NCBI GenBank assembly: GCA_021018995.1
Contig: CM037587.1
Location: 18,539,366 to 18,603,365 of the forward strand
Origin: Chloranthus sessilifolius
Lineage: Eukaryota > Streptophyta > Magnoliopsida > Chloranthales > Chloranthaceae
Direction: 5' to 3'
Length of the DNA: 64,000 nucleotides
Below, in pieces: positions 18,011 to 58,363 of the stretch. The position numbers and the translations under genes are program-made. The notes beneath the pieces were generated by a model. It was not told the origin of the DNA. It made no database searches and saw only the letters and a list, made by a program, of their open reading frames with translations. Position 1 is the stretch's first letter, and each line of letters starts with the position of its first letter.

Positions 18011-18205
18011 TGGCGCAATTAATAGTTGCGCCAGTTATAATTTTGCCTACCGCAACTATTAGTTCCGCCAGGCCACCTCTCCCAGAATTTAAGCTAATAG
18101 TTGCGCCAATTTTAAATGTGGGCCCCACCCTCACGGGCCAACTTTCAGGCACTGTTCATTACTATTTTACTATACATTTGCCTGGCGCAACTATTAGTTG
18201 TGCCA
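18011..18205. repeat. E3 23-bp dyad copies in U3 of the 5' LTR
   Basis: Copies at 18011-18033, 18048-18070 and 18183-18205, with a half site at 18093-18108. The consensus is an 11-bp arm TGGCGCAACTA, one central base, then the inverted arm TAGTTGCGCCA. Variants mostly change the CG dinucleotides to TG or CA. Confidence 0.9.
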
Positions 18206-18482
18206 GGCATATGAATAGTAACTCATAGTTTTTACCTCGAAATTCATAATTGAGGTTTGACTTGCTGACCACCTCGACCTTTGGGGTGTATTTTGCTAGT
18301 TCTGTTGCACCCTTTTAATGCCTATTTGCTTTGAGTGGCTTAAAGCCTCAACCCATCATCCACCAATAGAACCACCTTCACACCTTTCTAAGCTCTTAAA
18401 ATCCTAGGAAACCTTAGATTTGAGATTACCTAATTGCTAACCCCAATTAGCATATAAGTGGTCTCCTAATCCACCCATTTCC

Positions 18483-18490
18483 TATAAATA
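18483..18490 (+). promoter_or_regulatory. E3 5' LTR TATA box
   Basis: TATAAATA in TTCCTATAAATAGAG, matched by the same string at 57629-57636 in the 3' LTR. Confidence 0.7.
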
Positions 18491-19218
18491 GAGTCCCCCT
18501 CCCCTTGGATTAAAGGTTGAGAATTTTTACCTAAGAGAGAAAGAGCTTAAAGTGAGAAGATCTTTCTCCCTTTGGTGCACCATTGCTCATACAAATTCCA
18601 GAATTCCAAAACCTTCTTCCAACCCTTACCTTCCATAAAAACCTCTAGGTTAGGTGTATGCTACCCCTTAGCCTTCCTTCTCTACCTCTTAGCTACGAAG
18701 CCTTAGGAGTTAGAACCCCATTCTCTACCATTCAAGCCTTCAAAAGCTCATCAAAGCAAGCCAACGCAAGGCTCCTCTATGGTGCTACAAGGGCCCGAGG
18801 GCTCCGGCTCTCCCCATTCTTCTCCTATCTCTTCTTTAGCTCTTTCCATCCTCCCATTTGTGCCATTACGCCACCAAATTTTTAGTAAGAACGGAGGGGC
18901 ACAAATAGGATTTAAGGCCCATTTAGGCAAGAGGAAGCCATTTTCTTTTCTTTTACTTCATATTTATTTTGGCCTTTAGTAGAGACCGCGTTAAGCGGGT
19001 TGATCGGGTGCCTAACACCTTTCCAATCGATAATCGAAGCCCCTACCCTAGAGTCTTTGGTATGGACCGGATTCAGAGTCATATTTGTGACACTTCGGTG
19101 CTTATAAATATGATATAGGTATCCCGGGATACCAAAAGCTCCGGGTGGCGACTCTATAGTTTTTGCAAACGAGCGCATCACTGCGACGGGATCATTACGA
19201 ATCCTACGGTTGCACAGA

Positions 19219-19236
19219 TGGCGACTCTGCTGGGGA
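19219..19236 (+). other. E3 primer-binding site (Tat/Ogre, tRNA-Arg type)
   Basis: TGGCGACTCTGCTGGGGA, the string typical of Tat/Ogre elements and usually assigned to tRNA-Arg, two bases after the LTR end. Confidence 0.85.
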
Positions 19237-19372
19237 GTAGCTAGTAGAGCTTTCCCTTGAACTAGGCCTCTTTATTTTTTATTTTTCTAATATTTTATTA
19301 CTATTTTTTTTATTTTACTTACCCCTCCGATTAAGTCAATTTACTTACCCCTACTTTTACGTCATTTACAAG

Positions 19373-19575
19373 CCTTAGCCGATTGACGAGCCTACATGCG
19401 CATTATCTTTTAATTTTCTTTACTTTTCTGTCATTTTAGTGTCTTAGCCGATTGGCGGGCCCACTTGAGTATTGTCTTTCAATTTCTTTATTTTTCAGTT
19501 ATTTAAAGTGCCTTAGCCGATTGGCGGGCCTACTTGTGTACTCATATCCCAACAGTGGACGCCGAGCCGTAGTGG
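19373..19575. repeat. E3 leader: triplicated ~68-bp unit
   Basis: Three units start with CTTAGCCGATT at about 19374, 19443 and 19512, each followed by a GGCGGGCC-like word and a T-rich stretch. The remaining leader (19237-20700) is untranslated in appearance apart from the dyads at 20043-20207. Confidence 0.75.
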
Positions 19576-20042: not shown

Positions 20043-20207
20043 TGGCGCAAGTATTAGTTGCGCCAGTGCAAAAATTGAGAATTTATAACTGGCGCAACTA
20101 ATAGTTGCACCAGCTTTAAAATCCCAAAATTTACCTTGGTGCAACTAATAGTTGTGCCAGTGTAAAAAGGGAGTCCTGCAACCTGGGCGCATGTATTAGT
20201 TGCGCCA
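20043..20207. repeat. E3 dyad array in the 5' leader
   Basis: Four copies of the 23-bp dyad at 20043-20065, 20090-20112, 20137-20159 and 20185-20207, spaced about 47 bp apart, between the primer site and the gag start. Mutations again mostly affect CG dinucleotides. Confidence 0.9.
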
Positions 20208-20712: not shown

Positions 20713-21091
20713 GTGAACCCGGCTTATGCCGATCCCGACACATCCCCACCACACTCTCCAACCCATTCCCATGCAGGGGAAGTCTTTTCCACCATCCCCC
20801 TAACCCAATCACCCTTTACCGTTATCGGCCCGTTTGGCGCCCCCATTTTCCCAACCACTACCTCCCAAAACATTCAAAGTCCAACCCCCAGCTCCCCGTC
20901 TTTTGCCCAAACCATGCCCATACCAAATCCATCACATTTCCCACCCATGTCCATACAAAACACAAACCCATTCTCCCAATCCACATCCATGCCCCATTTC
21001 TCATCTTCCCCCTATAGGCCCGATCCACCCACATTCACATACACCACTTTCGCCCTATCCAACCCCCCATAAATCCCCCCATCTACCTAGG
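20713..21091 (+). pseudogene. gag: E3 gag, N-terminal fragment
   Basis: A Pro/Ser/Thr-rich reading frame (MNPAYADPDTSPP onward) reaches a TAA at about 21072, and the coding-like text stops at 21091 where E2 begins. The same low-complexity style (PNFFQTPTPNLSSSP) resumes at 38956. This matches the disordered N-terminal gag of Tat-type elements. The start is uncertain because earlier ATGs are possible. Confidence 0.5.
21087..21091. other. Target-site duplication of E2, left copy
   Basis: CTAGG immediately before the E2 5' LTR; the right copy at 38956-38960 reads CCAGG, one T/C difference. Confidence 0.75.
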
Positions 21092-21331
21092 TGTTAAGAC
21101 TTGAAAAGTACCACTTTTCACCCCTTAACTTAATCTCTATTGGACCCTTAATCATTTAATAAAAGTGTTTTAAGCCTGTTCTGTAGGTAATGAACAACAG
21201 CTGCAATAAGGCCTTAATCCTGCTAAGAAGCCCACTTTTGCCCCAGAAGTCTCTTAGAAGAAGGGAAGTTGGATCCAGACAAGAACTTGCCTGCATGAAG
21301 GTAAAGCACAGCAGCAACAGAGAAAGAAATG

Positions 21332-21935
21332 AGCTCGCACAGTTGCTGCAGGGTTCAAAGGATTCAGAAAGTAAGCCTCGCGCGGTCCTCGCGAGTTTCC
21401 CATGACTTCATACCAATTGTCCACGCTGTTCTTGCACAATTTAGTGATAGAAGGGCTTCAGAATCATGACTCGCACAGCTCTTAAAGCTCAAGCATTTAA
21501 ATGCTCATGCAGTTTCGTGCAGCTCAAGAAAGTAGCACTCAAAACCGCGCGTAGTTCACTCAAATAAGCTGAGGAGAGAGAGAGAGCTCCAGGTATTTCT
21601 ACGAGCAGCTATCTCACAGTAGCCGCGGGATGCAAAACTTCAGAAAAACCTCTCGCACAGTTCAGAGATCAATGCACATCATGCCCTCATGAGGATCCTT
21701 GCGAAGATCCATTGAGAAACAAATTGCTCGTGCGATTCCCGCGCCATTCAGAAGGAAAGTGCAATCCAGCGAAGACCAGAGAAATCTAGCGAGGATTCAA
21801 TGCTCTATCGCATGACTGCTTAAGCTACAAACTAAGACAACCCCGCGACGGCTAGAATTTCAAGTTAATCTAATCTCGCGAAGACTGTGCTACCACGTGA
21901 CAGTCTTGGAAACCAGTGCTACCTGGCGAGGCTCT
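21332..21935. repeat. E2 5' LTR array of TCGCGCAGTT/TCGCGAG motifs
   Basis: More than a dozen imperfect units, for example CTCGCGCGGTCC, CTCGCGAGTTTCC, CCTCTCGCACAGTTC, TCTCGCGAAGACTG, lie 180-790 bp upstream of the TATA box. Several units have lost CG to CA or TG compared with the 3' LTR copy. Confidence 0.85.
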
Positions 21936-22116
21936 GGACTCTAACTCTCCCTCACTTATGCAGAGGACATTCTAGGAACTTTCAGCAATTAGGGCATGCA
22001 CTCCAACGCTCCAATTTCTATGCACGCGACCCGAGGCATCTAAGGAACAGTATTAGGCCACATGGTATCGTTAAAATTAGGGTTTCCTAACCCTAATGCG
22101 CTGCCAAACTGACTGC

Positions 22117-22124
22117 TATATAAA
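22117..22124 (+). promoter_or_regulatory. E2 5' LTR TATA box
   Basis: TATATAAA in GACTGCTATATAAACC, with the same context in the 3' LTR at 37479. Confidence 0.7.
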
Positions 22125-23607
22125 CCTAAGCCTGGTTTAGGTTTAGGAGACCCCTCTTAGAATAGAATTTTGTCTATCTTCTTCTTGCAGTAGTTGTAGA
22201 TCTCTAGTAAGGTTTAGGTAGATTTCCTTTTACTTTTTCTTCTCTCCATAGCCCAGCACTTGCTGGCTATGCCTCTGTATGCTTATTTGGTTTAGATTTA
22301 TTAGAATTTCATGACTGGGTGTTTTACATGTATGGGATTGAAGTTTGAGATTGAGTTGTTCTGTACAAGGCTGCTGCCTTGAGATCCTCCTTTGATAGGT
22401 TGTATTATGAGCAATAGAGAACTATTTTTATAGACCTATTTAGATCCAAGTGACCTGTGTGTCTGGGCTAACATGCTCCCATACAATCTTAACCCCACCA
22501 CAGGATCCACTAGATCTGAAATCCCCATGGGAGCTTGTGCTTGTAGCCTTGTGAACATGGTGGTGACAGCAGTGTTCTTATTCTGTTTTGGTCCTCTGTG
22601 AGGAGGATAGCCTCTGGGATAGTCTGTGACCATTTAAGTGGACAGGTTATAGCCTTAGGGTGAGGCAAATCCACAGATCCATGATAGATTCTTCTTCTCT
22701 GCACTTGTGCTTGTAGCCTCGTGAGAGATTGTGCAGAGACAAACTCCCCTGTATTTGTATAGACCCGCCATCAGATGGAAGATCTGGTTTGGTTATAGAG
22801 ATTATAGGCTTGTGATTGGATCACTGCAGTCTTTCTACAGCAGTGGAGAGCTAGACCAAAGGCTGTACTCAAACTCTTGCTGGTTCTATGTGTCTGGGCT
22901 AACATGCTCCCATACAGGCCTAGCCCCACACATAGCACTTTAGAGGTTGAGGTTCCCTATGGATTCTTGTGCTTGTAGCCTAGATGAAGTAGTGCTTACA
23001 ATGATAGACTTGTTCTGACCCATCTCTGGACTGTGGTTCCCCAATTGGATAGTCTGTGACCATTTAAGTGAACAGGTTATAGCCATAAAGGGATTGTATT
23101 ATGGCACAGAGATGAGTTGGATTCTTTCTCCTCAGTGGTGATAATGTAGCCATTGGACAGGACTTCTATAGCAGCAGATCTGAATTTGAGTCATGAAACC
23201 CATCAGATCTAAACCTAATAGCATACTTCTCACCCCTTTTATATTTATTTTCCCACTCCATCCATTTTCTCAACCCTTTCTATGGTTTAGACATTAAGTT
23301 ACCTTAGGATTTAGAATTTAGTGACCTTAAATCCCCTTCCATTTAGGATTGCCAGACCAGTGATCGGATCCGAGAGCCTACTAATGATGGCTCCCTCGGA
23401 GCTTTAGATCAACTTTCCCTGTGGGACAAACTCTTACTTATCGAAACTTGCTACAACAGGCCCTGTATCTTGCAGGACTGTGCATATTTTAGGCTTGCTG
23501 CTCCATAATCATCACTCTACCTTTCACTCATTTTTTATTTACCCCATTCTTATCACTGTCTCTAATAAAGTCAATAGCAAGCACATAAAAATATCCCAAC
23601 AAGTTTT

Positions 23608-23625
23608 TGGCGTCATTGCCGAGGA
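23608..23625 (+). other. E2 primer-binding site, decayed tRNA-Asp type
   Basis: TGGCGTCATTGCCGAGGA differs from the canonical tRNA-Asp site TGGCGCCGTTGCCGGGGA at three positions, all C-to-T or G-to-A type. It follows the LTR end by six bases. Confidence 0.85.
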
Positions 23626-23887
23626 ATTTTGATCTAATAGTAGACTCTAGAATTTTGAATTCTTTATTCTTTGGTAGCTGTACTTGTGAATAATTGATAC
23701 TGCTGATTTACATTTGGAATTTTTCTTACAGATCTGGGCCGTAGCAGAGAAGGAGACTGGAATTGCATTGAGAGTCTAGCTACCTCTGTTTGCACTTCTC
23801 TAACCTTCAAAACCTCAGTCTATTTCTCCTTTGAAGATTCCATAAGGAGTTGATTAGGATAGTTGTGATTTTTTTTTCTAGTGTAAT

Positions 23888-25640
23888 GTGCTTGCGAATA
23901 GTTTTCCCTGCTGTTGGTGTGTGTGCATGTTAGGAAGGAGATCTCTCAGTCCTACTTTTGAGCCTGCTAACCCTGAGATTGAAAGGGGTAGAAGACCGAG
24001 AAGGCACAGACACACCACAATTGAGCCCCCTATTGAAATAGAGACAACAGTTATGGGTGAAGAGCAACCTAGAACATTGAAGAAATTGAATGCTCCGGAT
24101 GATTACAATTCTCCATTCAGCATTCAATTCCCAGATGTTTAGGGTAATTATGAGATCAAAACTTCCATCATTCGAATGCTTCCCTCTTTCCATGGGCTTA
24201 GCAAGGAAGACCCTTACAAGCACATTGACCAGTTCTTGGCCCTGTGTACGACATTCTCCATTGCTGGTTTGGGACCAGAAGCCACTAGGTTAAGGCTTTT
24301 TCCTTTCTCCTTAAAGGACAGGGCCATGACCTGGTTATCTACTCTCCCAAACAATAGCATCACTTCCTGGAACGACCTCCAAACAAGATTTTTGTCTAAA
24401 TTTTTCCCAGAGACCAAGACCAGCCAATTGAGGAAGGGCATCCTTTCTTTTGCCCAGTCCCCAACTGAAGATTTTAACCAATACTGGGATAGATTTAAGG
24501 AGATGCTGAAACAATGTCCCCACCACAAGATCCCTGATTGGCAGCTTGTCCAGAGCTTCTACAATGGGATTGATGAGAAGAGCAGAGATATGGTAGATGC
24601 CTCTTGTGGTGGAACATACATGCATAAAACAGCTGATGAGGCATGGGACTTATTTGAGATCATAAGTGAAAATGCTTTCCAGAAGATGTCCTCATCTAGA
24701 ACTGTTCAAGAGCCTTCTCCTAAGCTGGGGGTGGCTGAAACTTATAAAGGAAAGATGTATGAAGTTAGAGGAAACGATAACCTGAGAATACAGATGGCCA
24801 ATCTTACTGAAAGATTTGATAAACTTTTGACTGTGGTGCTGCCCAGAATGGCTGCACAAGTGATGGAGGCATGTCTGATATGCCAATCTACACAGTATAC
24901 AGTGGAAGAATGCCCATCTGCAGGGTAATACCCTGAGTTTGTAATGGAACAGGCTGCTGCTGCCCAATCTTTTGGACAACAATAATCTAGTGGCTATAAT
25001 AAGCAACCATATCAATACCAGCACCAAAATGCTGGTTACCAATGGAGAGACCACCCAAATTTGAGGTGGAGGCAAGACAATTATATGCAGCCACAACAGA
25101 TGTTGGCCTTACCTCAAAGGCCACAGCAGCAGTTTAACCAGGGTTATGCCCAAAGGTCAAATTTCCAACAGCAGTAGCCCCAACAACAAAATCAATTGGT
25201 ATATCCCCCACCTCAGCCCCGAAGTGCTTCTTTTGAGGACCAGGTTTTGGTCCAATTGCAAAGCCTTGGACCCTTAAATCAGACTGTGACTTCTCATAGT
25301 CAAAGCATTAAGAAAATAGAAGAGCAGCTTGGCCAAATAGCCAATGCTCTGGCTAAGAGAGAGGAGGGCAGGCTGCCAAGCCAACCAGTAGCCAACCCAA
25401 AGGGCTAGTATTCCATCTGTGAAGGCTCCTCAAATTTTGAGGGGGCCAATGCCATCACAACCTTAAGGTCTGGCAAGCTGGTAGACAACCAAGTTGGAAA
25501 AGAACAAGGAGATGTCTACCCTAAGAAAATATCAAGTGAAAATGATAAGGACTTTGTTAGCACACAGAGTCAAGAACTGCCTGCTACCCTTCAACAAGGG
25601 AAAAATAAAGAGGTAGAAGGACCTCAAAAGAGATAAAATA
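23888..25640 (+). pseudogene. gag: E2 gag
   Basis: One main frame runs from 23888 to 25408. An N-terminal region with IEPPIEIETT leads into the Retrotrans_gag core (LPSFHGLSKEDPYKHIDQF, DRAMTWLSTLPNNSI) at 24176-24925, then a knuckle (CLICQSTQYTVEEC) and a Gln-rich linker with a helical segment (SQSIKKIEEQLGQIANAL). In-frame stops occur at about 24140, 24926, 24985, 25174 and 25406. The knuckle has Tyr where the zinc-binding His is expected. Expected product is the capsid/nucleocapsid polyprotein, inactive in this copy. Confidence 0.88.
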
Positions 25641-25769
25641 GATAAAAGAAAAAAATAAAAGTTTAGCCATAGGCTTGCAGCTGAGGAACCAGCAGTACCT
25701 CAGCTGCCATTTCCTCAAGCTTTAAGTGGCCCTGCTCCTTTTAATAAGGGTCAGGCACAGATCGAGGAA

Positions 25770-26384
25770 ATGATAGAGACCTTTAAGCAAGTCAAAATAA
25801 ATTTACCCCTGCTTGATGCAATTCGACAGGTCCCAGCCTATGTAAAGTTTCTAAAGGACCTCTGTACTCAGAAAAGGAAGGCCAGAGGCCATTTGTCCAA
25901 AAAGGTCTTTGCAACTGATACAGTTAATTCTGTATTAACTATGACAATACCTGAGAAGTTGTAAGACCCAGGGATACCCACTATTCCCTGTATTATTGGA
26001 GACCACACGATTGGAAGGGCCCTTTTAGACCTTGGAGCCAGTGTTAACTTGCTGCCATCGTTGTATACCAAATAGACTAGGATTGGGGGAGCTGAAGCCC
26101 ACCCTCATTGTTCTATTGATGGCTGATAGGTCTGAGAGGAATCCCATGGGAGTGGTTGAGGATGTCCTAGTGGGGGTAGACAAGTTCTTCAACCCTGCAG
26201 ACTTCCTTGTTTTGGACATGGGTTGTAACAAAAGTACATCTCCGATACCTGTTATCCTGGGCAGACCATTTTTGGCCACTCCCAATGCATGCATTCAATG
26301 CAGGTCTGGAATCATGGAGGTCACTTTCAGACATATGAAAGTTGTACAATAATAGCAAAGTACCCTCACCGATAAGAGGAATGC
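25770..26384 (+). pseudogene. E2 aspartic protease segment
   Basis: A linker (KVKINLPLLDAIRQVPAY-like helix) leads into the protease box ALLDLGASVNL near 26030, then VILGRPFLATPNACIQC near 26250. At least one frameshift lies between the active-site box and the C-terminal part, and a TAA stop precedes it. It is the direct counterpart of 5916-6491 in E1. Confidence 0.85.
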
Positions 26385-28063
26385 TTGGTAGATGTACTAG
26401 AAGAAATTGTTGAAGAAGAACTGTCCACTCTGCTGGAGTGGGGTAACATTATCGCTAATTTAACTGAAGTTTGGAACTTGGTGGAGGAAGGAAGCCTAGC
26501 TTTAATGCCAGAAGACATGCCCCTAGTGAGGTCTTCTGTGGGCTTAGTTCATCATTCCAATTGGAAACCTACATTGTTGCCCCTTTCTCCAACCAACAAT
26601 ACACCAATCCTGCCATCCATACAACAAGCCCCTGATCTAGAACTCAAGAAGTTGCCAGAGATATTAAAATATACTTTCCTCGAGAAAGAAGAGAAACTTC
26701 CTGTAATTATCTCCTCTTCTCTAACCTGTGAGCAAGAGGAGGAATTGTTAACAGTTCTGAGGAAGCACAAGAAAGCAATTGGCTGGACCATTGCGGATCT
26801 GGGAGGGATTGATGCATCAATCTGTATGCATAGGATCCATTTAGAAGAGGGCTCAACACCCTCCAAGGAAATACAAAGGAAATTAAATCCTCACATGCAG
26901 GAGGTGGTCCTGAAAGAAATTATTAAGTTGCTGGATGCTGGGATAATTTACCCCATCTCTGATTCTAAATGGGTGGCACCAATCCAGGTGGTACCCAAGA
27001 AGTCTGGCATCACAGTTATCACAACCGACTCTGGAGAGTTGAGACCAGCCAGGCAGACCACTGGCTGGAGAGTTTGCATCGATTATCGAAAACTCAACTC
27101 CAAGACCAGAAAAGACCACTTCCCTCTCCCTTTTATTGATCAAATTTTGGATAAGTTGGCTGGGAAAGCTTTTTACTGTTTTCTTGATGGGTACTCAGGG
27201 TACAACCAGATCCCTGTGCACCCTTTGGATCAAGAGAAAACTACTTTTACTTATCCTTTTGGCACCTTTGCTTACAGAAGAATGCCTTTTGGACTGTGTA
27301 ATGCCCCAGCCACCTTTCAGAGGTGTATGTATGCCATCTTTTCTGATATGATTGATAAATTCTTAGAAATTTTCATGGATGATTTCTGGGTTTATGGGGA
27401 TAGCTTTGACCAATGTCTACAACACCTCCATCAAGTCTTACAAAGATGTGAAGAGACCAATTTGGTCTTAAGTTGGGAAAAGAGCCACTTCATGGTAACA
27501 CAAGGAATTATGTTGGGCCATGTGGTCTCTAAAGATGGAATTGAGGTAGACAAGGCCAAAGTTGACCTTATTGCAAATTTGCCCCCTCCAAGAACCGTCA
27601 AGCAAATCAGATCCTTCCTTGGGCATGCTGGATTCTACAGGAGGTTTATCAAAGACTTCAGCAAAATTGCTAAACCATTGTGCCACCTGCTCTGCCAAGA
27701 TGTGCCCTTTGATTTTTCTGCTGAATGTCTTGAGGCTTTTGAAAAGTGAAAAATCTGCCTCACCTCTTCTCCTATACTCCAAACACCTGACTATACCTTG
27801 CCCTTCGAGTTGATGTGTGATGGATCTGACTTGGCAATAGGTGCTGTCTTAGGCCAGAGAAAGGATAAGCTGCCTGTGGTCGTTGCATATCTCAGCAAAT
27901 CACTTGCTGAAGCTCAGCTGAACTACACAACCACTGAGAAAGAGCTCGGCAAGTGGTTTTGTCAGGACAAGTTTAGACCTTACCTACTTGGGTCTAAACT
28001 GCCATCTTCAATCGACCACTCAAAGACAGAGTACCTACTATCCAAGAAGGATGCAAGCCCAGA
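26385..28063 (+). pseudogene. pol: E2 reverse transcriptase and RNase H
   Basis: An uninterrupted 454-codon frame (26385-27749) contains the RT palm (GWRVCIDYRKLNSKTRKDHF, GYSGYNQIPVHP) and the catalytic FMDDF box near 27375, with the thumb (VRSFLGH-type block, here IRSFLGHAGFYRRF). A TGA at 27747 interrupts the connection to RNase H (27798-28067; LMCDGSDLAIGAVLGQ, YTTTEKEL). A frame change near 28064 separates RNase H from the integrase. The RT core itself looks intact. Confidence 0.92.
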
Positions 28064-29539
28064 TTGATTAGATGGATACTCCGATTGCAGGAGTTTGACA
28101 TCGAAATCAAAGACAAGAAGGGTATAGAAAATGTGGTGGATGACCACTTGTCCAGAATTATGTTGGAAAAAGGTGATGATGACCTTGCTACAAATGATGT
28201 CTTCTCGGATGAGCAACTATTTTCCATCCACTCTTTAGTCCCCTGGTATGCACATATTGTCAATTATCTAGTTATAGGCAAGATCCCTTCCTATTGGACA
28301 AAAGTCGATAAAGACTTATTTTTCTCACAAGTCAAATTATTTTTCTGGGAAGAACCTTGCTTGTACAAGTATTGTGCAGACCAAATCATTCGGAAATGTG
28401 TCCCCGAAAGTGATGTCCCCAGTATTCTGGCCATGTGCCATGAAAATGCCTGTGGGGGTCACTTTAGTGGGAGAAAAATAGCTGACAAAATGCTGCAGTG
28501 TGGGTTCTATTGGCCTTCTCTTTTCAGAGATGCCAATACACACTGCAAGACCTGTGAAAGATGTCAGAAACTAGGAGGGCTATCTAAACAAAATTCAATG
28601 CCTTTACAGCCCATCCTTGTTGTAGAACTGTTTGATGTGTGGGGTATTATTGATTTTATGGGCCCCTTTCCTCCTTCAAATGGTTTTCATTTCATCTTAG
28701 TGGCAGTGGACTATGTTTCCAAATGGGTAGAAGCCATTGCCACAAGAACTAATGATAATCAGTTGGTCCTCAAGTTCATAAAGCAGAATATCTTCTCCAG
28801 ATTTGGTACCCCTAGAGCCATTATCAGTGATGGGGGGAGCCATTTCTGTAACAGAAATTTCGAGAGCTTGCTCAAGAAATATTTTGTCACCCATAGGATT
28901 GCTACTCCCTACCGCCCACAAAGCAGTGGACAAGTTGAAATTTCAAATAGGGAGATCAAGCATATCCTTGAGAAGACTGTGAGGACTGATAGGAAGGATT
29001 AAGCTGACAAGCTTAATGATGCACTGTGGGCTTATAGGACTACCTATAAGACCCCCATCGGTATGTCCCCTTTCAGACTGATCTATGGCAAGGCCTGTCA
29101 TCTCCCAGTGGAGTTAGAACACAGGGCCTATTGGGCCATCAAACATTTAAATCTAGATCTAAGTTCTGCTGGTCTTCACAGGTCGCTGCAGCTGTCTGAA
29201 TTGGAAGAACTAAGGATGGATGCGTATGCCAATGCCAGGATCTACAAGGAAAGGTCCAAAACTTTCTTTGACAAAGGGCTGTTGAGAAAGAGTTTTATCG
29301 CTGGTGATAAGGTTTGGTTATTTAACTCCAAACTTAAGTTTTCTTCGGGCAAATTGAAATACAGATGGGAAGGTCCTTATATTGTCATGCATGTTTCCCC
29401 ATCTGGTGCTGTGGAAATCAAGGATCCCAAGTCTGGGAGAACCTTGAAAGTGAATGGTCAGAGGTTTAAGCCTTGTTTTGAAAAACCTGCTGACCTTTTG
29501 GACACCATTCACTGTCAAGGGGATCCTTCTTCAAACTGA
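28064..29539 (+). pseudogene. E2 integrase
   Basis: The HHCC module (HENACGGHF ... HCKTCERC) is followed by the DDE core with Asp in IIDFMGPF, Asp in IISDGGSHF and Glu in SGQVEIS, all three kept. A single TAA at about 29000 interrupts the frame shortly after the core, and the C-terminal GPY-type domain ([11 protein letters not shown]) ends at 29539 (GDPSSN). With only one stop this is the least damaged integrase in the window. Confidence 0.92.
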
Positions 29540-29880
29540 TTCCACCGGTGTGTCATTACTGTATCATATGTACTTAGTTTTTGGTTGATTTATCTTGCTT
29601 TCTTTAGTTTCTATTCTCTAGGATTTGCTAGTGGCCTTATCTGAATTTTACCCTATCTGTTTTGAACTTTTGATGCTTGGCTTGATTCATACTGCTTTTG
29701 AATTGATAGCTTCTGTTGAATGCCTAATGTGGAAGATCATTTTTCTTGTCCTTGAGTGTCTAATTGAGTTTACATGTGTCTAAAGACAGTCATAGGAGAG
29801 GGTCATGCCCAGGATTCAATCACAGCAAACATGCAAAAAGGGGCAGAACAGAGAGCACATGCTCTCTGTTTTATTCCTTA
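29540..29880. other. E2 spacer after pol, no gene seen
   Basis: Non-coding text between the integrase stop and the motif array. No recognisable gene or RNA. Confidence 0.6.
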
Positions 29881-30330
29881 CTGTCGCTAGGTCCAAAATG
29901 AAAGTCTGGGAGACTATCACGAGATTCAATAGCTATCGCGAGGTTAAAAAGGAAGCCTGGGAGCATGTTTCTTAGTTTGCATAGCAACATCCAATGCCTA
30001 TCGCGAGTTTCATGTGTGCCTGACAACCTCTCGCGCGGTCCACATCGCGCTCTTCAGTAGTTCTTGCGAGATTATCAGGCTGTCGCGAGGTTCTCAAGGT
30101 AAACTAGGAGACTCTCTCGCAATTCAACAGAAATACTTCATTTCCTATCTCGAGATTCTAAGTCTGTCGCGAGATTCAAAAATGAACCTCAGAGCTTTTC
30201 GCGTAATCTAATAGATACCTAAGAACCACTCGCGTGACTCACATGAATTAATCTCTCTATCGTGCGCTCCAAGGATAACTTGAGAGATTGTCGCGCAATC
30301 CAGATTTAATCCACACCTTCGCTAGGTTCA
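29881..30330. repeat. E2 internal array of CTRTCGCGAGRTTC motifs upstream of ORF3
   Basis: About 16 imperfect units (for example CTATCACGAGATTC, CTGTCGCGAGGTTCTC, CTGTCGCGAGATTC, CTATCTCGAGATTC, TTGTCGCGCAATCC) lie 315-765 bp before the ORF3 ATG. The core TCGCGA is palindromic. The spacing to ORF3 nearly equals that of the different E1 array. Confidence 0.88.
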
Positions 30331-30339
30331 TTTCCAAGC

Positions 30340-45850: not shown

Positions 45851-47158
45851 GAGCCGACCTTCTGCCTCCAGATTGAGGAACCTACAAAGCCTGATGATGA
45901 GCCACCTTGGTTCTCAGATACTAAGAATTTCCTCGAGACACTAACTTTCCCTAAGGGTACATCCAAGACAGATCGACGAACCATCCAACGTCTAGCGGCA
46001 AGCTATGTCATTTACGGGGAATGCCTTTACAAGCGATCCTATAATAATATTTTACTAAGATGCCTTACGAAAAGTGAAGCGATCAATATCATGAAGGAGA
46101 TCCATGAGGGACTATGCGGAGCCCACGTCAGCGGTCACATGGTTGCTAGGAAAATTTTGCGACAAGGATACTTTTGAACCACTATGGAATTAGATTGCTG
46201 TAAACATGTTCAGAAATGCTACAGGTGTCAAGAACACTCCAGTCTGATACACGCTCTTGCCATTGATCTACAGTGCATGACCACTCCTTGGCCATTTGCT
46301 ACCTGGGGCCTTGACGTCGTTGGAATGATTCATCCAAAAGCATCAAACGAGAATCGGTTCATCCTCGTTGCCATTGAATACTTCACAAAGTGGGTTGAAG
46401 CAGCATCATACGCCAATATCATGGCCAGTCACGTCGAGAAGTTTCTCAAGAATAATATTGTGTGTCGATTTGGAGTACCCAAAGATATCATCATAAACAA
46501 CGACATAAATTTTGCGAATAAGTACATCTGAGCCTTCTGTGAGCAATACAAAATCAAGTACCATCGCTCGTCACCTTATTGGCCTCAAACTAATGGAGCC
46601 GTAGAAGGCGCAAACAAAATGGTCATCTGTATCCTTGAGAAAATGGTCGTCACCTATCGAGATTAGAGCGAGATGTTGTAATTTGCTTTGTGGGCTTACA
46701 GAACATCAATCTGTACCGCTATAGGTGCAACACCATTCTCCCTTATGATTGGAACTGAGGTCGTCCTACCAGTGGGGTTGAAGTACCCTCGCTTTGAATC
46801 CTTATGGAATCAGGCTTACCTAAAGTAGAAAGAGAGAGATCTCACTTCGAACAATTGAACTTATTGGACGAGAAGAGACTCCTAGCCTTGTGTCACACTC
46901 AAAGTTTATCAGGAGCGAATCGCACGCGCTTAAAATAAATGTGTTTGCGGTTGAGATTTGAAGATAGGGGACACTGCGCTGAAGAAGATCTTCCCATCCC
47001 TCCATGCCGATCCAAGAGGAAAGTTCAAGCCAAACTGGGAAGGACCTTACGTCATCCAAGAAGTGCTTCCAGGATATGCCATCCGCCTCGCCACCATGGA
47101 CGGAGATCATCTTCCTGAGCCCATCAACGCTGGATACGTCCGACGATTCTACTCTTAG
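45851..47158 (+). pseudogene. E3 integrase, broken
   Basis: The HHCC module (HEGLCGAHVSGHMVARKILR ... CCKHVQKCYRC) is followed by the core with WGLDVVGMIHP, then IIINNDINF where SDN is expected, so the second catalytic Asp appears as Asn, and finally GAVEGANK with Glu kept. The C-terminal GPY-type domain (NWEGPYVIQEVLPGYAIRL) ends at 47158. TAG and TGA stops interrupt it. Confidence 0.88.
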
Positions 47159-48689: not shown

Positions 48690-49960
48690 CTGACTTTTTC
48701 TTGTGCCAAAAGTTCTTGCAGGACCCTCTTCTCGTCCACCAGTAGCTCAATACGGGCTCAGAGTATCGTCTCCTTCTTTGGCCAGGGACCTCTAGTATCA
48801 ATAATCTCTGTCGAATCTGGACCATTAGCAACAAGCTGCTCGGTCGATAGCCAGGCCTCATACTCAGGAGAAGATTGAACCAAATCTCCCTACTCAATAT
48901 CACACATCAGCGTTGACTGACGCATCTCCCAAAGAGCAGCAATCCGATCTATGTCTCCAGAGGACCCCCTAGAAAAGATCAAATCACATAGAGGGGGTTT
49001 GGCCTCGCAAGGAACCTGCTGAGGGCAGCCGAACTGACGCAACACCCGAAATGGGAAGTAAAAGGTGCTGCCAGTCAATCCTAGGATAGTGATGCCCTCA
49101 TGGTCTCTGAGCGAACTACTAGGAAGATCCGGTCCAACCATGGAAGCCTCCATGTCAGCTCGGCATCGGTCAACCAAAGCTTCAGAGCTGACACATCACC
49201 TTGTGGAAGCATGTGGCACCTACCCAAAAAGCATTGAGCCGCCTCACCTCGAGCAACATAAAAGCGGGGCACAGGCCCCAAGATAGCGAGGTGCTCACCC
49301 AACCAGACCTGAAGCAACAAGGGGCACCCCCGAAGGCCCTCCACCTTACCCAAAGCAAATGAATCATGGCATCAATACAGCTCAGCAAGCACCAAATACA
49401 TCATGGATCGGCCCTCCTCCAACTCGGTTAGAATATCGCAAATTTCCAAAGAGAAACTCTCCCCCTAGTAAAGAAGAGGATTTCAGAAATGAGACCGAGT
49501 CCTAAAGCTTTCACGTTGAAAATGTTCCTAACTGGGAATTTTTGGAGACTTTCGTCACCGAAAACTTCTTTGAGGAATTTTAGCAAACACCTTGTGGGTC
49601 CCCCGATGAGACTTTTCTCATACTCGAGTTTCTTCAAACTGAGAGTAAGGTGAATGGATTTGGAGTAGCCATTTCAAGGCATGACTTTTGCAAGGCCCCT
49701 ATGAAGCTTTAAGCCGAACAAATTGGATAGCTCCTCAAGGGTTGGGGTTAGCTCCCGCTTCCCAAAATGGAATACATGAAAATTCACATCCCAAAATGAA
49801 GCGGCAGCATAAAGGAGTTCCCACCGTGGAGGAACCTCAAGAAAGGAAGGAAGGCGAGATAGCCCAAGGCGCTCCAAGTCGGCGAGCTCACTCTCATTCT
49901 AGCTCCCAAACCAAGCTATTAGAAATTTGGGCCCCAAGCCCAAGGAAGGGGGTAAATTAT
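48690..49960 (-). pseudogene. E3 antisense gene A: DUF7745-like
   Basis: On the strand opposite to E3's pol, the words YAAASFWDVNFHVFHFGKRE and LTPTLEELSNLFGL (49877-49674), RCLLKFLKEVFGDE (49637-49428), KVEGLRGCPLLLQVWLGEHL (49353-49290) and ITILGLTGSTFYFPFRVLRQ with FGCPQQVP (49100-49010) follow each other in the order of the plant retrotransposon-associated domain known as DUF7745. Frames change and stops occur, so it is decayed. TATAAAAA at 50313-50306 and two dyads at 50241-50171 precede the start. Function is unknown. Confidence 0.75.
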
Positions 49961-50170
49961 CTCCGAACCCTCCACATAAGGGAGGGCTAGAATGTGGGTC
50001 TATAGACGTACAATGATCTTTTGAGAAGATAAAAATTGATGTATGGTGGTGGACCCGCCTTGGAAAAGAAAGAGCAAAAAGAACCGGTCAAAGAGGCCAA
50101 GCGAAACAAAAAAGAAATAATTTTTGAGCTAACTCGGGTATATGAGGACCCACAGCCCCCAGGTTAAGCC

Positions 50171-50241
50171 TAGCGCAACTATTAGTTGCGCTAGCACATT
50201 CTTCCTGGGATTTTAGCCCGACACAACTAATAGTTGCGCTA
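50171..50241. repeat. E3 dyad pair upstream of antisense gene A
   Basis: Copies at 50171-50193 (arms TAGCGCAACTA and TAGTTGCGCTA, perfect) and 50219-50241. They lie between the antisense TATA box and the start of gene A. Confidence 0.9.
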
Positions 50242-50305: not shown

Positions 50306-50313
50306 TTTTTATA
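50306..50313 (-). promoter_or_regulatory. TATA box of antisense gene A
   Basis: The minus strand reads GGGTATAAAAAGC, about 65 bp upstream of the first dyad and roughly 350 bp upstream of the first legible codons. Confidence 0.5.
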
Positions 50314-50559: not shown

Positions 50560-53020
50560 ATTTTAAAGCAAAAAATTAAAAGCCTATTCCTAGCTCGCGC
50601 CCTTTGACTTCTTTCGATGGCGAGAAGAGCACTGGAAAGTCCGCATGTCCCCCACCCGAGACCACGCCTACAAAATTCTACTAAGCAAAGAGTGCGACTC
50701 CTTGGCACGGGCACGCTGCGAGGCACGGTCAAAATAAAAAATCAGGATCAATTAAGGGACAAATAATAATGGAACAAATGAGAGGAGCAGAGCAGCAAGG
50801 TACTCACCGTATCCACCTCCCTAAGCTCCGTAATGTGGCGATGATACGCTGCATACTTCATGGCCAAGTTGAAGTCCCACATTCAGATCAATACAATATC
50901 AGCTATCGGGGCAATCATAAAGCATATACAAAAGAGGACTGAAACAAGAAAGAGATGGGTCGTCAGAAGATTTACCCCTGGGATCACCTCATGAGGAGGC
51001 ACACAGGCTGCCTCAGCAAAGAGTTGCGCTTGTCGATCCACATTAGCGCAGAGGCCCGAAAGAAAGCTATCATCCAGGTGTCGAAAGGTCCCATAAACCA
51101 CGGGCGGATCGCCACCAGGGATACCGGCATGAGAGCTACCCGACGGACCAACACCAGAAGAGCCCTCGCCCGAGGGACCCACACTAGAAGGGCCAGCACC
51201 GGAGGGATCTACCCCTGACGTATCAGCCGCACTTGTCCCGCCTTCACCATCTGAATCATCTCTAGGAGCAAACTGTGAACAAAATAAAGATCCGCTTAGA
51301 GGGGATGAAGGCTGAATTAAAACATAAGGGGAACTAATCCAAGCTAAGAAGAAGTACCTGACCGAGTGGGCCACCAAATGCAAGAAAATTGGTGCTAGGT
51401 ACAAAGCGTGGCAAGATAAACCGATATGACAAGCACTCATACCAAAGATGATAGTCCCGAGCACATGGAGAGCATGGATGGGGAGCCCATTATTGAAAAC
51501 GACCACCGTGAGCTCCTCGATACTACCAATAGGACTCTAAATGTCATCGGAGGATCCACAGGTATGGAATAGTAGCCCTAGAACTGGTGCACCACCCGCT
51601 CTCCTAGATAATAAAACATGGCCCATGCTCTATAGAAGAAAATGATGCGGCGGTTGTTTAACAGGCGAGAGGGGCCTACGGCTGCCCGGTCCCAGAAAGG
51701 GGATGCAAGGTACGGGTCAGGAAGGATCTGTCCAATCCAAAAAGAGGTCAAACAGGTAGCACATCAGTCAAAGGGGATTTTTGAACTAGAACAAACAGAT
51801 TTGAAAAGGGGCTTTACCTGCTTAGGAACCATAAAGTCGAGTTGGGACCTCAAACCCATCTCCAAGTGCTTGAGGGCTAAGTCACGGCGTCGGGCCTGGT
51901 TCCATTTGCTGAGAAGAGGATAGGTGAGCTCCTCCGAGAAAAGAAGCGGGCGCCCAGGGTGAAAGTGATAATATCCCCATACCTGAAAAGGGGCTAGCAC
52001 ACAAGAGCAGGTTAGTAGCATATAAAGATCATTTAAGAAAATGGCAAAAGCAAAGGAATGAGGAATTACCTCCAGGGCAGCCCAAAAACCAACAGCGGAC
52101 TTAGAATCACCGGTCGTGACCCAAGCCAGGTTATACATTAGGCATGTGTACCCGGCTCCTCCCCAGTCATACCTATGGACGTCACCCCAATTGTCCACGA
52201 CACGTAGCAAGGCTAGGTTGACTCGGCCACCACTTACGTTGGTGGTCTTACCAAGTAAGACCAGGAGAGTGATGTGAGCTAGGACGATCGCCGGCTCTGG
52301 CGTGATGTAGAGCACCCTATCTGGTTGACCTAGATCCACTAGCTCATCAGGTGTATAAAGTGCGGTCAGCCAGGACATCTTGACCTCGGTACCATGGGTC
52401 TGCCCGCGAGGGGGATAGGCCCCAATCAATCAGATGATGTCCTCTCTGCTCGGCACCGTGAGATCGGCTATTGGTATCCCTCCTATCCTATTGCCGGTAA
52501 TCATGGCCCAATCGACGGACATCAAGGTCATCTCGGCGTACGGCATATGGAAGGTCATTGTTTCAAGGCGAAATCGCTCGATCAGGGCCTTCAGATAGGC
52601 AGAATCAACCCTCATGGCAGGACAGGACAGAAACTCCCCAAAGCCTACTTGTGGCAGCAGGACCTTCACTACAAGAGGGACATAGAGGTAGAAGTCTTGA
52701 AAGGCGAGCCACCCCCTGTGGAATACAATATGGGGCAGGTCCTGCACCCAAAGAAATGCACATCAGAGTTTGAAAATAAGGTAAAAACTGCATAAGGGAA
52801 ATAAATTGAACCCCTCTTTTACCTTCCCGGCTATTCCGAAATTCGAAATATGGGTATGCTATTGGTGTAGGAGGCCGACTCGGGCGACCTCGCCCTGCAT
52901 TTTGAGCCATGGGCCTGCTCTCCACTCTACCCAAATGAACTGCTCCCCCCGCGGGCTGTATACTATCTCGGGTCCCTCCTCGTGGCTCTCCTCAGGAATA
53001 TGCTCATCCTCGCCCGACAT
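50560..53020 (-). pseudogene. E3 antisense gene B: plant mobile domain (PMD) protein with introns
   Basis: Minus-strand ATG at 53020 opens MSGEDEHIPEESHEEGPEI. The PMD core follows: LIERFRLETMTFHMPYAEMT, then GRVNLALLRVVDNWG, YDWGGAGYTCLMYNLAW, VWGYYHFHPGRPLL and DYHLWYECLSYRFILPRF, then a Ser/Gly/Pro-rich linker and a helical tail. Consensus GT/AG boundaries give at least four introns: 52822-52742, 52069-51983, 51817-51728 and 51357-51273 (81, 87, 90 and 85 nt); removing each restores domain continuity in the expected order. In-frame stops (near 52858, TGA at 52432-52430, and others in exon 4) show decay. PMD proteins include host MAIN/MAIL regulators of silencing and are known passengers of plant transposons. 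Confidence 0.82.
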
Positions 53021-53059
53021 GTTGGGGCACAAAAGTCAATCACATTAGAGCAAATCAGT

Positions 53060-54028: not shown

Positions 54029-54925
54029 ACATTGTTCATGAAAAACCATTCACACATCATCAATCAATATGCTTACGATGGAAATAAACCATTTTTCATC
54101 TAGGAATGCAAGACCATGATCATATTTGCAAGAAAAAGCAAGAAAAATCAAAGAAAATAGGTGTTATATGATTACCTTCTGAAGGAAAAGGGGTTGTTGA
54201 TCTAGCGCGAGCCGCCAATCGATCCACACAAGCAAAGCAACAGCAATGGGGCATGCGTAGAGGCAATGTAAAGGAATCCTAAAAAGGGGTCAGTTTTCAG
54301 TTTCAAGAGGAAAAGAGGGAAATTTTTTGAAATAATGCCCTACAGCCCAAACTCGGGCTGTTTAAATTCCTCCCCAGCCAAGCCTGGTGCAATTATTAGT
54401 TGCGCAGGCAAAATTATGCCCATCTTTTGCTTGGCACAAGTAATAGTTGCGCCAGGCTATTTTGAGGCCCCTATTGAACATTGTTCATGAAAAACCATTC
54501 ACACATCATCAATCAACATGCTTACGATGGAAATAAACCATTTTTCATCTAGGAATGCAAGACCATGATCATATTTGCAAGAAAAAGCAAGAAAAATCAA
54601 AGAAAATAGGTGTTATATGATTACCTTTTGAAGGAAAAGGGGTTGTTGATCTAGCGCGAGCCGCCAATCGATCCACACAAGCAAAGCAACGACAATGGGG
54701 CATGCATAGAGGCAATGTAAAGGAACCCTAAAAAGGGGTCAGTTTTCGATTTCAAGAGGAAAAGAGGGAATTTTTTTGAAATAATGCCCTACAGCCTGAA
54801 CTCGGGCTGTTTAAATTCCTCCCCAGCCAAGCCTGGTGCAATTATTAGTTGCGCAGGCAAAATTATGCCCATCTTTTGCTTGGCGCAACTAATAGTTGCG
54901 CCAGGCTATTTTGAGGCCCCTATTG
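54029..54925. repeat. 449-bp tandem duplication
   Basis: Copy 1 is 54029-54477 and copy 2 is 54478-54925, both starting ACATTGTTCATGAAAAACC. They differ at few positions. Each contains two 23-bp dyads and the same splice-donor-like site. Confidence 0.92.
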
Positions 54926-54951
54926 GCTTGGCGCAACTAATAGTTGTGCCA
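54385..54951. repeat. E3 dyad cluster upstream of antisense gene B
   Basis: Copies at 54385-54406 (one base short), 54432-54454, 54834-54855, 54881-54903 (perfect) and 54929-54951. They lie 1.4-1.9 kb upstream of the gene B ATG. Confidence 0.9.
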
Positions 54952-55199
54952 AACACTCAGGCCGGGTCTTGGGCCTGGTACGAGCCAGATAGGAAAGCCG
55001 GTCCTCCACTCTTTTTATTTATTTTGTCACTCCCGACAGATGCGCGCGCTCCCAAGACGACATTTCGATCATCCTTCGACTTGCCAAGAAAGTCATGTTA
55101 AAATAAAAGCAGACCAAGATCGATAAGTACCCCGATCCTGCACAGGAAACTATAAAGAAAAATCCAACAAAAAATAAGAAAAATCCCCACAGAGAAGCC

Positions 55200-55545
55200 G
55201 GAAGTATTCACGAAAAATAATAGGAAAAATCACATAAAATAATAACTTCAAAATTCCAAAAAATCATGTAAAATGATAGGTAAAAATTCCAAAAGATAGC
55301 TTCAAAATTCCAAAAAATCACATAAAATAATAGCTTCAAAATCCTAAAAAAATCACATAAAATGATAGGTAAAAATTCCAAAAAATAGCTTCAAAATTCC
55401 AAAGAATCACATAAAATGATAGGTAAAAATTCCAAAAAAATCACATAAAATAATAGTTGAAAAATTCCAAAAAAAGTCACATAAAATGATCACATAAAAT
55501 AACAATTGAAAAATCCAAAAAATCACATAAAATGATAGAAAAATC
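55200..55545. repeat. A-rich minisatellite
   Basis: Irregular units around AAAAATCACATAAAATGATAG, about 20-40 bp long, more than ten copies. No coding potential. Confidence 0.85.
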
Positions 55546-56797
55546 AAAAACATATTTTTATTCCCCCGCACAGACGCACATGCGTGTTCTGATGCGGTAG
55601 AATGTCGACATTTTATCAGCAACACCACTGTGCTATAGTAACGTCCTAAGTCCAAGGTGCGCCTTGGATTCTAGATCCTACTTCAAGGAAGGAGCAACGG
55701 TGTTCGTCCCGGCCAAACAGTCAATGTTTTGATCGAGTCGACTCCACTGCTAAATCTTTGCGATGAGCACTCTATGTTGGATTCACATGAACTTAAGTGT
55801 CTTAAGCTTCAGATTCTCTGTTGGAAAAGGTCAATCGTTGGTTGGGACCAACCTGTTGAGAATGAGATTACGTATCAACCAAACTATGTGCAATCATGCA
55901 TTCAGAAGGGTTCATTTCCCTTTTATTTTCTGCAGGCTTAAAACTAGTATGGGAAGCGGTATCCCTGTAAAGTATACGCCATGCGTCTGGGTATCCGTAT
56001 GATGGTCGTTTGTTCCCATAAATTATACCCGGGCAAGTCCGGGTCGGGGCTTCCATCGCCTTTGTTGTTGCTTATCGCCCTTGATGGGTGCATGTTTATG
56101 TATAGTTAATTGATGTTTATGATCATTATCGACGGAAGCCAGGATTGGATGCCCCTTTTTGGGAGACACCTAATGATTGCTTTGATCTGTTTAGTGGTAC
56201 TTGAAGCTGGATGCTCTAGGTCATGTCGGTCTGGGGCACATTTTCAAAAATGGCACGTCCTCCCAAAAAGTGTTGGGACTTCTAATCACTCGGGTAGTCA
56301 TGCTAAATAAACTTTGGGATCATTGGGTTCACCCAGAGATTTCGAACCTTGCTTTAGGCAGGGGCACCCACGACCAGTCAAATGAGGCAATCAAATGGCT
56401 TATAAGATTAGACACAAACTGTAGAGCCTTGCGTAGTTTTGCTTAGCGCCTATCTTTGAATGTGGGCCGGATCACCTCTCTTACTTACGAAGCTGTTGCA
56501 TTCAGAATGAATCTTAAATATCAAATACCTTCAAATCATCTCGAGAAGTGAATGTTTGGCCTGGCATACAAGGATTTCGCAACTCGTTCCACCTTGGTTA
56601 TGCTCAGTAATGTCGCTAAGCGCTTGGGGACCGATTACCTTGAGAAACGAATATTTAGCCTAACATCTAGGACTTTCATTTTCTCGTTACTCACCTGATG
56701 TTTGAAGTTCGTTCTAAATGTAGTGGACTCATCAGTAATGGCTTGGGCCTCTTCAAACGTCTCTTCTTTGGCATTCGATCATTAGTGATCGGATACC
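55546..56797. other. E3 3' untranslated region, no gene seen
   Basis: Between the minisatellite and the polypurine tract. Short frames (for example 55729-55941 and 56201-56446) show no family resemblance. Confidence 0.55.
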
Positions 56798-56810
56798 AAA
56801 GAGGGGCATC
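56798..56810 (+). other. E3 polypurine tract
   Basis: AAAGAGGGGCATC directly before the 3' LTR start TGTAGACAC. Confidence 0.7.
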
Positions 56811-58363
56811 TGTAGACACACAAATTTGGCCTAAGGCCTGATCGAAACACATTTTGAGAGAGGTGCACTTCTGAGCTCTTAATGGCATGTATAAAACCCT
56901 TAGGAACCTTTCCAAACCCTTGAGAATCAACCCTAACCATCCCGACCCATAGAACCCGTTCTAAACCTAAACCTAACCTCCCAAGCCTTGAAAAAAGGAG
57001 GGGTATACCAGAACTAGCTATGGCTGTCTACTATAATCAAATATTATACCATTGAAAAGTAGAAGTCGTCAGCTTTCCAACGGCCTAAGAATCGCCCCAA
57101 TCGGAGTTACAGATCAAAAGATATGGTAGTCCGAACCTGGAGGGCAAAAAGGGAATTTCAAGTGCCCCCCCTAGGGAATTAGTTGTGCCATGCAACTTCT
57201 CCCAGAATTTAAGCCTGGCATAACTAATTCTCCCAAAATTAGTTGTGTCAGTTTTAAAGGTAGACCCCACCCTCGTGGGCCAACTTCCAGGCACTGTTCA
57301 TTACTGTTTTACTGTACATTTGCCTAGCGCAATTATTAGTTGCGCCAGGTATATGAACAGTAACTCATCGTTTTTGCCCCAAAATTAGTGATTGGGGTTT
57401 GACTTGCTGACCACCTCGACCTTTGGGGTGTGTTTTGCTAGTTTTGTTGCACCCTTTTAATGCCTATTTACAACCCTTTGAGTGGCTTAAAGCCCCAACC
57501 CATCATCCACCATTAGAACCACCTTTAAAAATTTTAAGCTCTCAAAATCTTAGGAAACTTTAGATTTGAGATTACCTAATTGCTAACCCCAATTAGCATA
57601 TAAGTGGTCTCCTAATATACCCCTTTCCTATAAATAGAGCCCCCCTCCCCTTGGATTAAAGGTTGAGAATTTTTACCTTAAGAGAGAAAGAGCTTAAAGT
57701 GAGAAGATCTTTCTCCCTTTGGTGCACTATTCTCATACAAATTCCAGAATTTCAAAACCTCCTTCCAAGCCTTACCTTTCATTAAAACCTCTAGGTTAGG
57801 TGTGTGCTACCCCTTAGCCTTCCTTCTCTACCTCTTAGCTACCAAGCCTTAGGAGTTAGAATCCCATTCTCTACCATTCAAGCCTTTAAAAGCTCATCAA
57901 AGCAAGCCAACGCAAGGCTCCTCTACTATGCTACAAGGGCCTGAGGGCTCCGACTCTCTCCTTTCTTCTCCTATCTCTTCTTTAGCTCTTCCCATCCTCC
58001 CATTTGTGCCGTTACGCCGCTGAATTTTCTATAACAACGGAGGGGCACAAATAGAATTTAAGGCCCATTTGGGCAAGAGGAAGCCATTTTCTTTTCTTTT
58101 ACTTTATTTTTTGTTTTGGCCATTACTAGTGACCGCATTTAGCGGGTTGATCGGGTGCCTAACACCTTCCCGATCGATAACCGACGCCCCTACCCAAGAG
58201 TCTTTGGTGTGGATCGGATTCAAAGTCATATTTTTGGCACTTCGGTGCTTATAAAAATGATATAGGTATCCCGAGAGACCAAAAGCTCCGAGTGGCGACT
58301 CTATAGTTTTTGCAAGCGAGCACATCACCGCGATGGGATCGTCACGAATCCCACGGTCGCACA
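56811..58363 (+). repeat. E3 3' LTR
   Basis: 1553 bp, colinear with 17639-19216, starting TGTAGACACAC and ending TCGCACA. TATAAATA is at 57629. One well-kept dyad is at 57325-57347; two further copies near 57171 and 57216-57250 are degenerate. Confidence 0.92.
57629..57636 (+). promoter_or_regulatory. E3 3' LTR TATA box
   Basis: TATAAATA in TTTCCTATAAATAGAG, matching 18483-18490. Confidence 0.7.

Follow-up and report, generated by a model that had tools for sequence, protein, structure and literature searches.

A palindrome at the presumed control regions of an Ogre-like retrotransposon

Why should one palindrome stand in the long terminal repeat (LTR), in the leader and before both antisense genes of a single retrotransposon? 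The question is raised by E3, an element in a 64,000-nucleotide stretch of the Chloranthus sessilifolius genome (contig CM037587.1, positions 18,539,366–18,603,365, forward strand; hereafter the window, whose numbering is used throughout). E3, now decayed, belongs to a very abundant family of Ogre/Tat-like LTR retrotransposons and carries two antisense genes of the plant mobile domain (PMD) type, here called A and B. From the sequence, we consider it probable that its 23-bp dyads form operator arrays specific to the family, at which a single dimeric DNA-binding factor serves sense and antisense promoters alike.

The dyad is confined to non-coding parts of E3

The consensus dyad TGGCGCAACTANTAGTTGCGCCA matched 12 places in the window at ≤3 mismatches and none in 100 dinucleotide shuffles. 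At ≤4 mismatches we found 15 complete sites, all of them within E3 and outside the approximate coding intervals; counting the half-site at 18086 and two 3' LTR remnants as well gives 18 in all. The initial annotation had counted at least 15 copies or remnants of one dyad and placed them in U3, in the leader and before antisense genes A and B, and both the number and the positions are borne out by the following sites, which are given with the TATA boxes near them.

18011–18033, + strand, U3 dyad 1 (1 mismatch)
18048–18070, + strand, U3 dyad 2 (3 mismatches)
18086–18108, + strand, U3 dyad 3, lacking its left arm (deduced from the 3' LTR to have been whole)
18183–18205, + strand, U3 dyad 4 (1 mismatch)
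18483–18488, + strand, TATA box of the LTR promoter, TATAAA (recurs at 57629 in the 3' LTR and in loci L001, L002 and L004)
20043–20065, + strand, leader dyad 1 (kept in relatives)
20090–20112, + strand, leader dyad 2 (kept in relatives)
20137–20159, + strand, leader dyad 3 (kept in relatives)
20185–20207, + strand, leader dyad 4, with a deviating left arm (kept in relatives)
50139–50144, − strand, CATATA, a TATA-like box immediately downstream of array A
50171–50193, − strand, array A dyad, the perfectly palindromic variant TAGCGC...GCGCTA
50219–50241, − strand, array A dyad (4 mismatches)
50308–50313, − strand, further TATA box candidate, 72 bp to the 5' side of array A (equal distance in L065)
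54385–54407, − strand, array B dyad, duplicate copy
54432–54454, − strand, array B dyad, duplicate copy
54810–54815, − strand, TATA-like box just downstream of array B, TTTAAA
54834–54856, − strand, array B dyad
54881–54903, − strand, array B dyad, perfect
54929–54951, − strand, array B dyad
57163–57190, + strand, remnant of U3 dyad 1 in the 3' LTR
57216–57250, + strand, 3' LTR remnant of U3 dyad 3, with about 11 bp between its arms
57325–57347, + strand, U3 dyad 4 in the 3' LTR

The half-site at 18086 is a former whole dyad, both arms of which survive in the 3' LTR. Because the dyads at 54385 and 54432 lie within a 449-bp segment duplicated at 97% identity and the one at 57325 is the 3' LTR partner of 18183, the number of independent sites is 13 (18086 included). 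At ≤7 mismatches there were only two further places, 14125, which is not in E3, and 51009, which is coding, and neither scored beyond what simulated sequences reach. A weight matrix built from 14 of the sites scored all 15 complete sites above 28 bits on their best strand, compared with 11.2 bits for the next-best place and 16.4 bits for the highest maximum of 30 simulated sequences. The shuffles and these simulations together rule out a chance origin of the dyads. Within arrays the tandem pitch is 47 or 48 bp in the leader and before both antisense genes, and 37, 38 and 97 bp in U3.

The absence of dyads from coding sequence, also claimed initially, holds for E3 and for 30 kb of PMD gene bodies from 30 loci (E3's own included), in which no dyad was found at ≤5 mismatches; the dyad density of these bodies is not that of the non-coding regions. 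For E3 itself the claim is less firm, as a uniform spread over four independent clusters would leave its coding sequence dyad-free with p ~0.06, and what the relatives add on coding density comes from PMD bodies only.

In the 2.17-Gb assembly the dyad has 58,286 sites at ≤3 mismatches, and the reversed pattern has none. Among the first places listed, L001, L002 and L004 are U3 arrays in E3-family LTRs (L003 overlaps L002), which are 83–86% identical to the E3 LTR on the 3' side of the array and 74–76% on the 5' side. The dyad, also in a shorter form, was not found in the viral DNA collection viral_contigs, nor its 21-bp form in the prokaryotic and viral collection genome_contigs, and both negatives are uninformative on plants.

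Arrays precede the antisense TATA-like boxes and recur in relatives

Each antisense array has the same order: up to three dyads at ~48 bp, a spacer, a TATA-like box and then usually CCCGAGTT. The distance from the last dyad to the TATA-like box is usually 26 bp for A and 18 bp for B, and differs in copies missing a dyad. The gene A box is present in 10 of the 11 copies shown with sites (TATATA in six, CATATA in four) and the gene B box, TTTAAA, in eight of the nine copies shown. In the LTR, the TATA box lies 278 bp beyond the last U3 dyad. The statement that dyads stand at every presumed promoter fits the antisense genes, whose arrays directly precede TATA-like boxes in most copies, but is loose for the sense unit, because the U3 array lies ~280–470 bp before its TATA box and the leader array follows the LTR promoter.

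Relatives of E3 were picked by similarity from the same single genome and were seen as slices of the elements rather than as full-length copies. For the 5' end we took the ten best leader matches after E3, among 40 listed, that reached at least position 811 of 812 (two partial matches were skipped). All ten have the leader array at ≤6 mismatches, eight with four sites at 47, 47 and 48 bp and two with three sites, and eight of the ten have U3 arrays of three to five sites; in L072 no match to the E3 LTR was found at the expected place. For the antisense side we used the 40 listed PMD matches, of which E3 is the first, and took an 8-kb stretch of L065, the best relative by PMD match (91%), along with ten of the next eleven (one partial match was skipped). 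At ≤5 mismatches all 11 have array A, which lies to the 3' side of PMD, and nine have array B, which lies to its 5' side.

Dyads stay alike while spacers diverge

We compared dyads with the spacers between them in complete, uniform arrays only, namely nine of 11 leader arrays, four of 11 arrays A and three of the six arrays B given (the input did not include L047 for array A, nor L039, L040, L041 and L047 for array B). Dyads at different sites are 0.87 alike in their best orientation and 0.85 in fixed orientation, close to the 0.90 for one site across copies. Spacers at one site are 0.91 alike across copies, but between different sites they are only 0.42 alike (0.40 in fixed orientation).

The 12 independent complete sites of E3 carry 23 deviations, against 17.1 predicted by a decay calibrated on the LTRs for dyads that were perfect at insertion. 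Across 57 sites the deviation rate is 0.20 at CpG positions and 0.057 elsewhere, as would be expected of methylated, silenced copies.

A probable operator for sense and antisense transcription

The dyad symmetry, the fixed pitch, the promoter-proximal arrays in both directions and the loss of spacer likeness while dyads are kept point to a site for a dimeric protein that is used by all units. Each array would then offer some two to four binding sites, at a pitch of 47–48 bp outside U3, to one dimeric sequence-specific protein, and the arrays would be placed at control regions: U3, the leader and, for each antisense PMD-clan gene, the stretch immediately before its TATA-like box. The gag-pol unit and the two antisense genes could in this way be switched jointly by one factor, in a circuit that would be autoregulatory if an antisense gene encodes the binder. 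The sequences themselves show the sites, their spacing, their placement in the relatives sampled and the likeness of dyads beside differing spacers, whereas we infer the binding itself, the identity of the binder and the direction of its effect.

Several observations weigh against this operator. One E3-family LTR, L078, has lost or never had the whole U3 dyad block, a gap that could be either a deletion or the mark of a subfamily without the block; L042 shows no array B within the 2.4 kb examined; and L065 (2380–2490) keeps the TATA-like block of gene B, GCTTGGCTGGGGAGGAATTTAAACAGCCCGAGTT, intact with the dyads before it gone. The arrays recur in the leader of 10/10 sampled relatives, in U3 of 8/10, at A in 11/11 and at B in 9/11, and these three copies are exceptions both to that recurrence and to the interpretation of the initial annotation. 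Its claim that the dyad marks the presumed E3 control regions is supported, and the findings it had named as refuting were for the most part not seen. The layout common to relatives is, moreover, partly a reflection of descent, the relatives having been chosen by similarity. The TATA-like boxes are consensus matches, and gene A has a second candidate box, TATAAA, 72 bp 5' of the first dyad in E3 and L065, which, if used, would put the array A dyads in a 5' leader. Spacers at different sites retain some likeness (0.42, compared with 0.33 when shuffled). Leader sites 1 and 4 have left-arm changes common to copies, so the parent dyads were not all perfect; these shared changes rule out the idea that every dyad was perfect at insertion, and "near-identical" is the right description where "perfect" is wrong. 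Finally, arm pairs changed on both sides number 13 against 16.2 expected among 161 sites (two of them counted twice, as L036 overlaps L065), which is no excess, and there is no sign of pairing selection in inserted copies.

Who would bind the dyad is a matter on which we are more tentative. Given an operator, the binder is perhaps encoded by the element. Its PMD-clan proteins suggest themselves, since it is their own genes that the arrays precede and since a promoter motif has been linked to host PMD proteins. The likelihood of a host factor is almost as high. The dyad would then mimic the site of a host transcription factor and have been multiplied for host-driven activation, and this possibility, which we take seriously without favouring it, accounts for promoter-proximal arrays in both directions with no element-encoded binder. 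In some plant LTR elements U3 repeats let the host switch the element on, and the GGCGC of the dyad arms bears what we take to be a loose resemblance to E2F sites. The usual sites of plant transcription factors are shorter, however, than a 23-bp near-perfect dyad, and the different palindromes at other PMD loci (see below) fit element-specific recognition better, if weakly. Rather doubtful is a fuller scheme in which a PMD/DUF7745 protein would bind its family's own arrays at the LTR, the leader and its own promoters, coordinate sense and antisense transcription and perhaps lift silencing, with protein and palindrome co-evolving by family and the other PMD palindrome arrays being further such pairs.

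Two readings do away with an operator altogether. The palindromes might act as hairpins in the transcript, in packaging, in export or as a source of small RNA, and the leader array does fold strongly (−81.8 kcal/mol, z −8.6), with neighbouring dyads pairing together. Such folding is expected of any palindrome array, though, and arrays A and B stand before a TATA-like box and so would be outside the mRNA if that box is used. The lack of excess in paired changes also speaks against hairpins, although most of these changes are probably post-insertion decay. Rfam returned three matches, each far below the gathering score, and on the whole we judge an RNA role improbable. Quite improbable, too, is that the dyad is a functionless palindromic minisatellite unit which slippage and template switching have multiplied inside the element. 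The constant pitch of 47–48 bp and the 449-bp duplication over array B are repeat dynamics, array B is absent from two of 11 sampled copies, and tandem-repeat arrays occur in about half of recently active Retand elements (PMC11963269). Slippage or copying would nevertheless carry the spacers along, whereas the spacers differ widely and the dyads stay alike, at separate regions.

A 23-bp operator with this many genomic sites would give a direct handle on the role of antisense PMD genes in retrotransposons: identifying what binds the dyad would make that role testable. Should a protein of the element itself prove to be the binder, self-recognition of the VANC kind would no longer be limited to DNA transposons but would include large plant retrotransposons.

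Comparison with known systems

Plant LTR elements such as Tnt1 have regulatory tandem repeats in U3. Like E3, they carry repeated cis-elements upstream of the LTR promoter; unlike them, E3 uses one element to mark the leader and two antisense promoters as well. The analogy drawn initially with the anti-silencing system of VANDAL transposons and their VANC proteins applies to array architecture but not to the type of carrier or to the length and orientation of the motif. PMC5735166 and PMC10398659 describe a short family-specific motif in tandem arrays, mainly non-coding, and E3 likewise has a family-specific motif densely arrayed in non-coding regions. VANDAL, however, is a MULE-type DNA transposon of Arabidopsis, whereas E3 has LTRs, a primer binding site (PBS) and gag-pol, and the VANC21 motif is nine bases long and arrayed in one orientation (PMC5735166), whereas that of E3 is a 23-bp palindrome.

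The Tat elements Ogre (with PMD) and Retand (with TRP28) resemble E3 in having antisense open reading frames in their 3' part, and a regulatory role has been proposed for the Retand antisense products (PMC11963269). The accessible parts of that paper and of PMC6317226 hold no description of a palindrome shared by LTR, leader and antisense promoters, and we found no publication on such a palindrome in an Ogre element, in a search outside which most subscription papers lie. Palindromes as insertion targets are the subject of PMC6911290. The host PMD pathway of MAIN, MAIL1 and PP7L is similar to E3 in connecting PMD proteins with a DNA motif in promoters (PMC7156037), with direct DNA binding unproven there; its DOWN motif, CATGCAGTTT in the MORC1 promoter (PMC9899485), is unlike the E3 dyad.

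Other palindromes at PMD genes

The genome yielded 20,278 PMD candidates, 117 of which were scored, and 30 loci (L005–L034) were cut out with 1.5-kb flanks. None of these 30 carries the E3 dyad, seven have TGACAGTGGGNRCCCACTGTCA-like sites and one has a TTTCGATTAATCGAAA-like array. The TGACAGTGGGNRCCCACTGTCA-like palindrome, of 22 bp, occurs at L012, L013, L021, L030, L031, L033, L034 and L107, for the most part as irregular arrays, variable in their spacers, that lie 3' of a separate group of PMD genes (L021 and L034 have one site each within the flank available). Genome-wide it has 2,073 sites at ≤2 mismatches, and the control has none. Among 54 perfect places listed on contigs C1–C8, 14 lie ≤10 kb from one of the 83 scored PMD loci of these contigs, where 0.07 would be expected. 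Every one of the 14 is to the 3' side, and L030 and L031, which account for two of them, are loci that supplied the pattern.

The main TGACAGTGGGNRCCCACTGTCA-like array was absent from 6 kb on the PMD 5' side in two loci. With the array on the 3' side and this absence 5', we gave up the idea that the other palindrome-bearing PMD loci are Ogre families with the layout of E3. A frame neighbouring a PMD locus of this type has no Pfam match; by eye it looks OTU/MULE-like. On the PMD 3' side of L032, positions 3046–3631 hold the TTTCGATTAATCGAAA-type array, with a pitch of ~21 bp in places. In L005, which has a 739-aa open frame, a loose array of CAGTCG...CGACTG palindromes is on the PMD 5' side (3350–3600); this and two further loci with a long open PMD frame were taken for host genes. 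Self-reverse-complementary stretches in L106 and L108 were rejected as arrays, as they appear to be single large inverted repeats.

With one finder, a palindrome family of at least three members was present in seven of the 30 PMD loci and in three of 17 similar-sized pieces of the window, a small and non-random control in which all three positives are the E3 dyad. The different palindromes beside other PMD genes hint, without proving it, that PMD elements pair with palindromes of their own.

Elsewhere in the window, four copies of a 14-bp palindrome, CTTGCCRYGGCAAG, lie at 11957–12043, ~90–170 bp before ATATATAG. With 0.56 copies expected and four reached in one of 100 shuffles, this is a weak signal.

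Anatomy and surroundings of E3

The remaining features of E3 are as follows.

17638–19218, + strand, 5' LTR (self-alignment to 56810–58365, 86.4%; ends approximate)
19219–19236, + strand, putative PBS directly after the 5' LTR, TGGCGACTCTGCTGGGGA
21091–38955, no strand assigned, nested LTR element inside E3 (LTRs 21091–23601 and 36453–38955, 93%; no dyads)
40183–47158, + strand, gag-pol, broken (gag, RNase H and integrase fragments)
48890–49960, − strand, antisense gene A, broken, DUF7745/PMD-like (ends approximate)
51764–53035, − strand, antisense gene B, broken, plant mobile domain (ends approximate)
54029–54925, no strand assigned, 449-bp tandem duplication over part of array B (97% identity)
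56810–58365, + strand, 3' LTR (self-alignment; ends approximate)

We assigned E3 to the Ogre lineage layout because it has LTRs, a PBS, a gag-pol region in gypsy order and antisense PMD genes in its 3' part. The LTRs are ~1.58 kb long and 90.5% identical over 1,428 aligned columns with the dyads left out. Ogre elements are primed by tRNA-Arg (PMC9289625), and PMD is present in 57% of the Ogre elements surveyed in PMC6317226. Pfam domains in 40183–46531 follow the order gag, RT_RNaseH_2, RVT_3 and integrase core, which is that of gypsy elements (RNase H before integrase); RT_RNaseH_2 and RVT_3 are over the cut-off, and gag (E 6.4e-4) and the integrase core (E 3e-4) are below it. The pieces of gene A match PF24924, the DUF7745 family (E 1.2e-5, just below the cut-off), and PF10536, the PMD family (E 4.8e-4, below it), and those of gene B match PF10536 at 52433–52762 (E 2.8e-8, 33.8 bits for a cut-off of 34.9) and 51767–52429 (E 4.9e-5), both below it. 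In L065, PMD reaches 69.6 bits, over the cut-off, and DUF7745 15.7 bits, below it. An intact PMD piece of 221 aa, used as the query of a protein search, gave 300 candidates, none at E ≤0.001.

The 449-bp duplication is apparently younger than the insertion of E3, since its copies are 97% alike and the LTRs 90.5%. The visible parts of the putative flanking gypsy-type element (17300–17637 and 58555–64000) have no dyads. To the right of E3 a gag match spans 58555–59064, and the left side, 17300–17637, was judged by eye; this suggests that E3 was inserted in the gag of another gypsy-type element.

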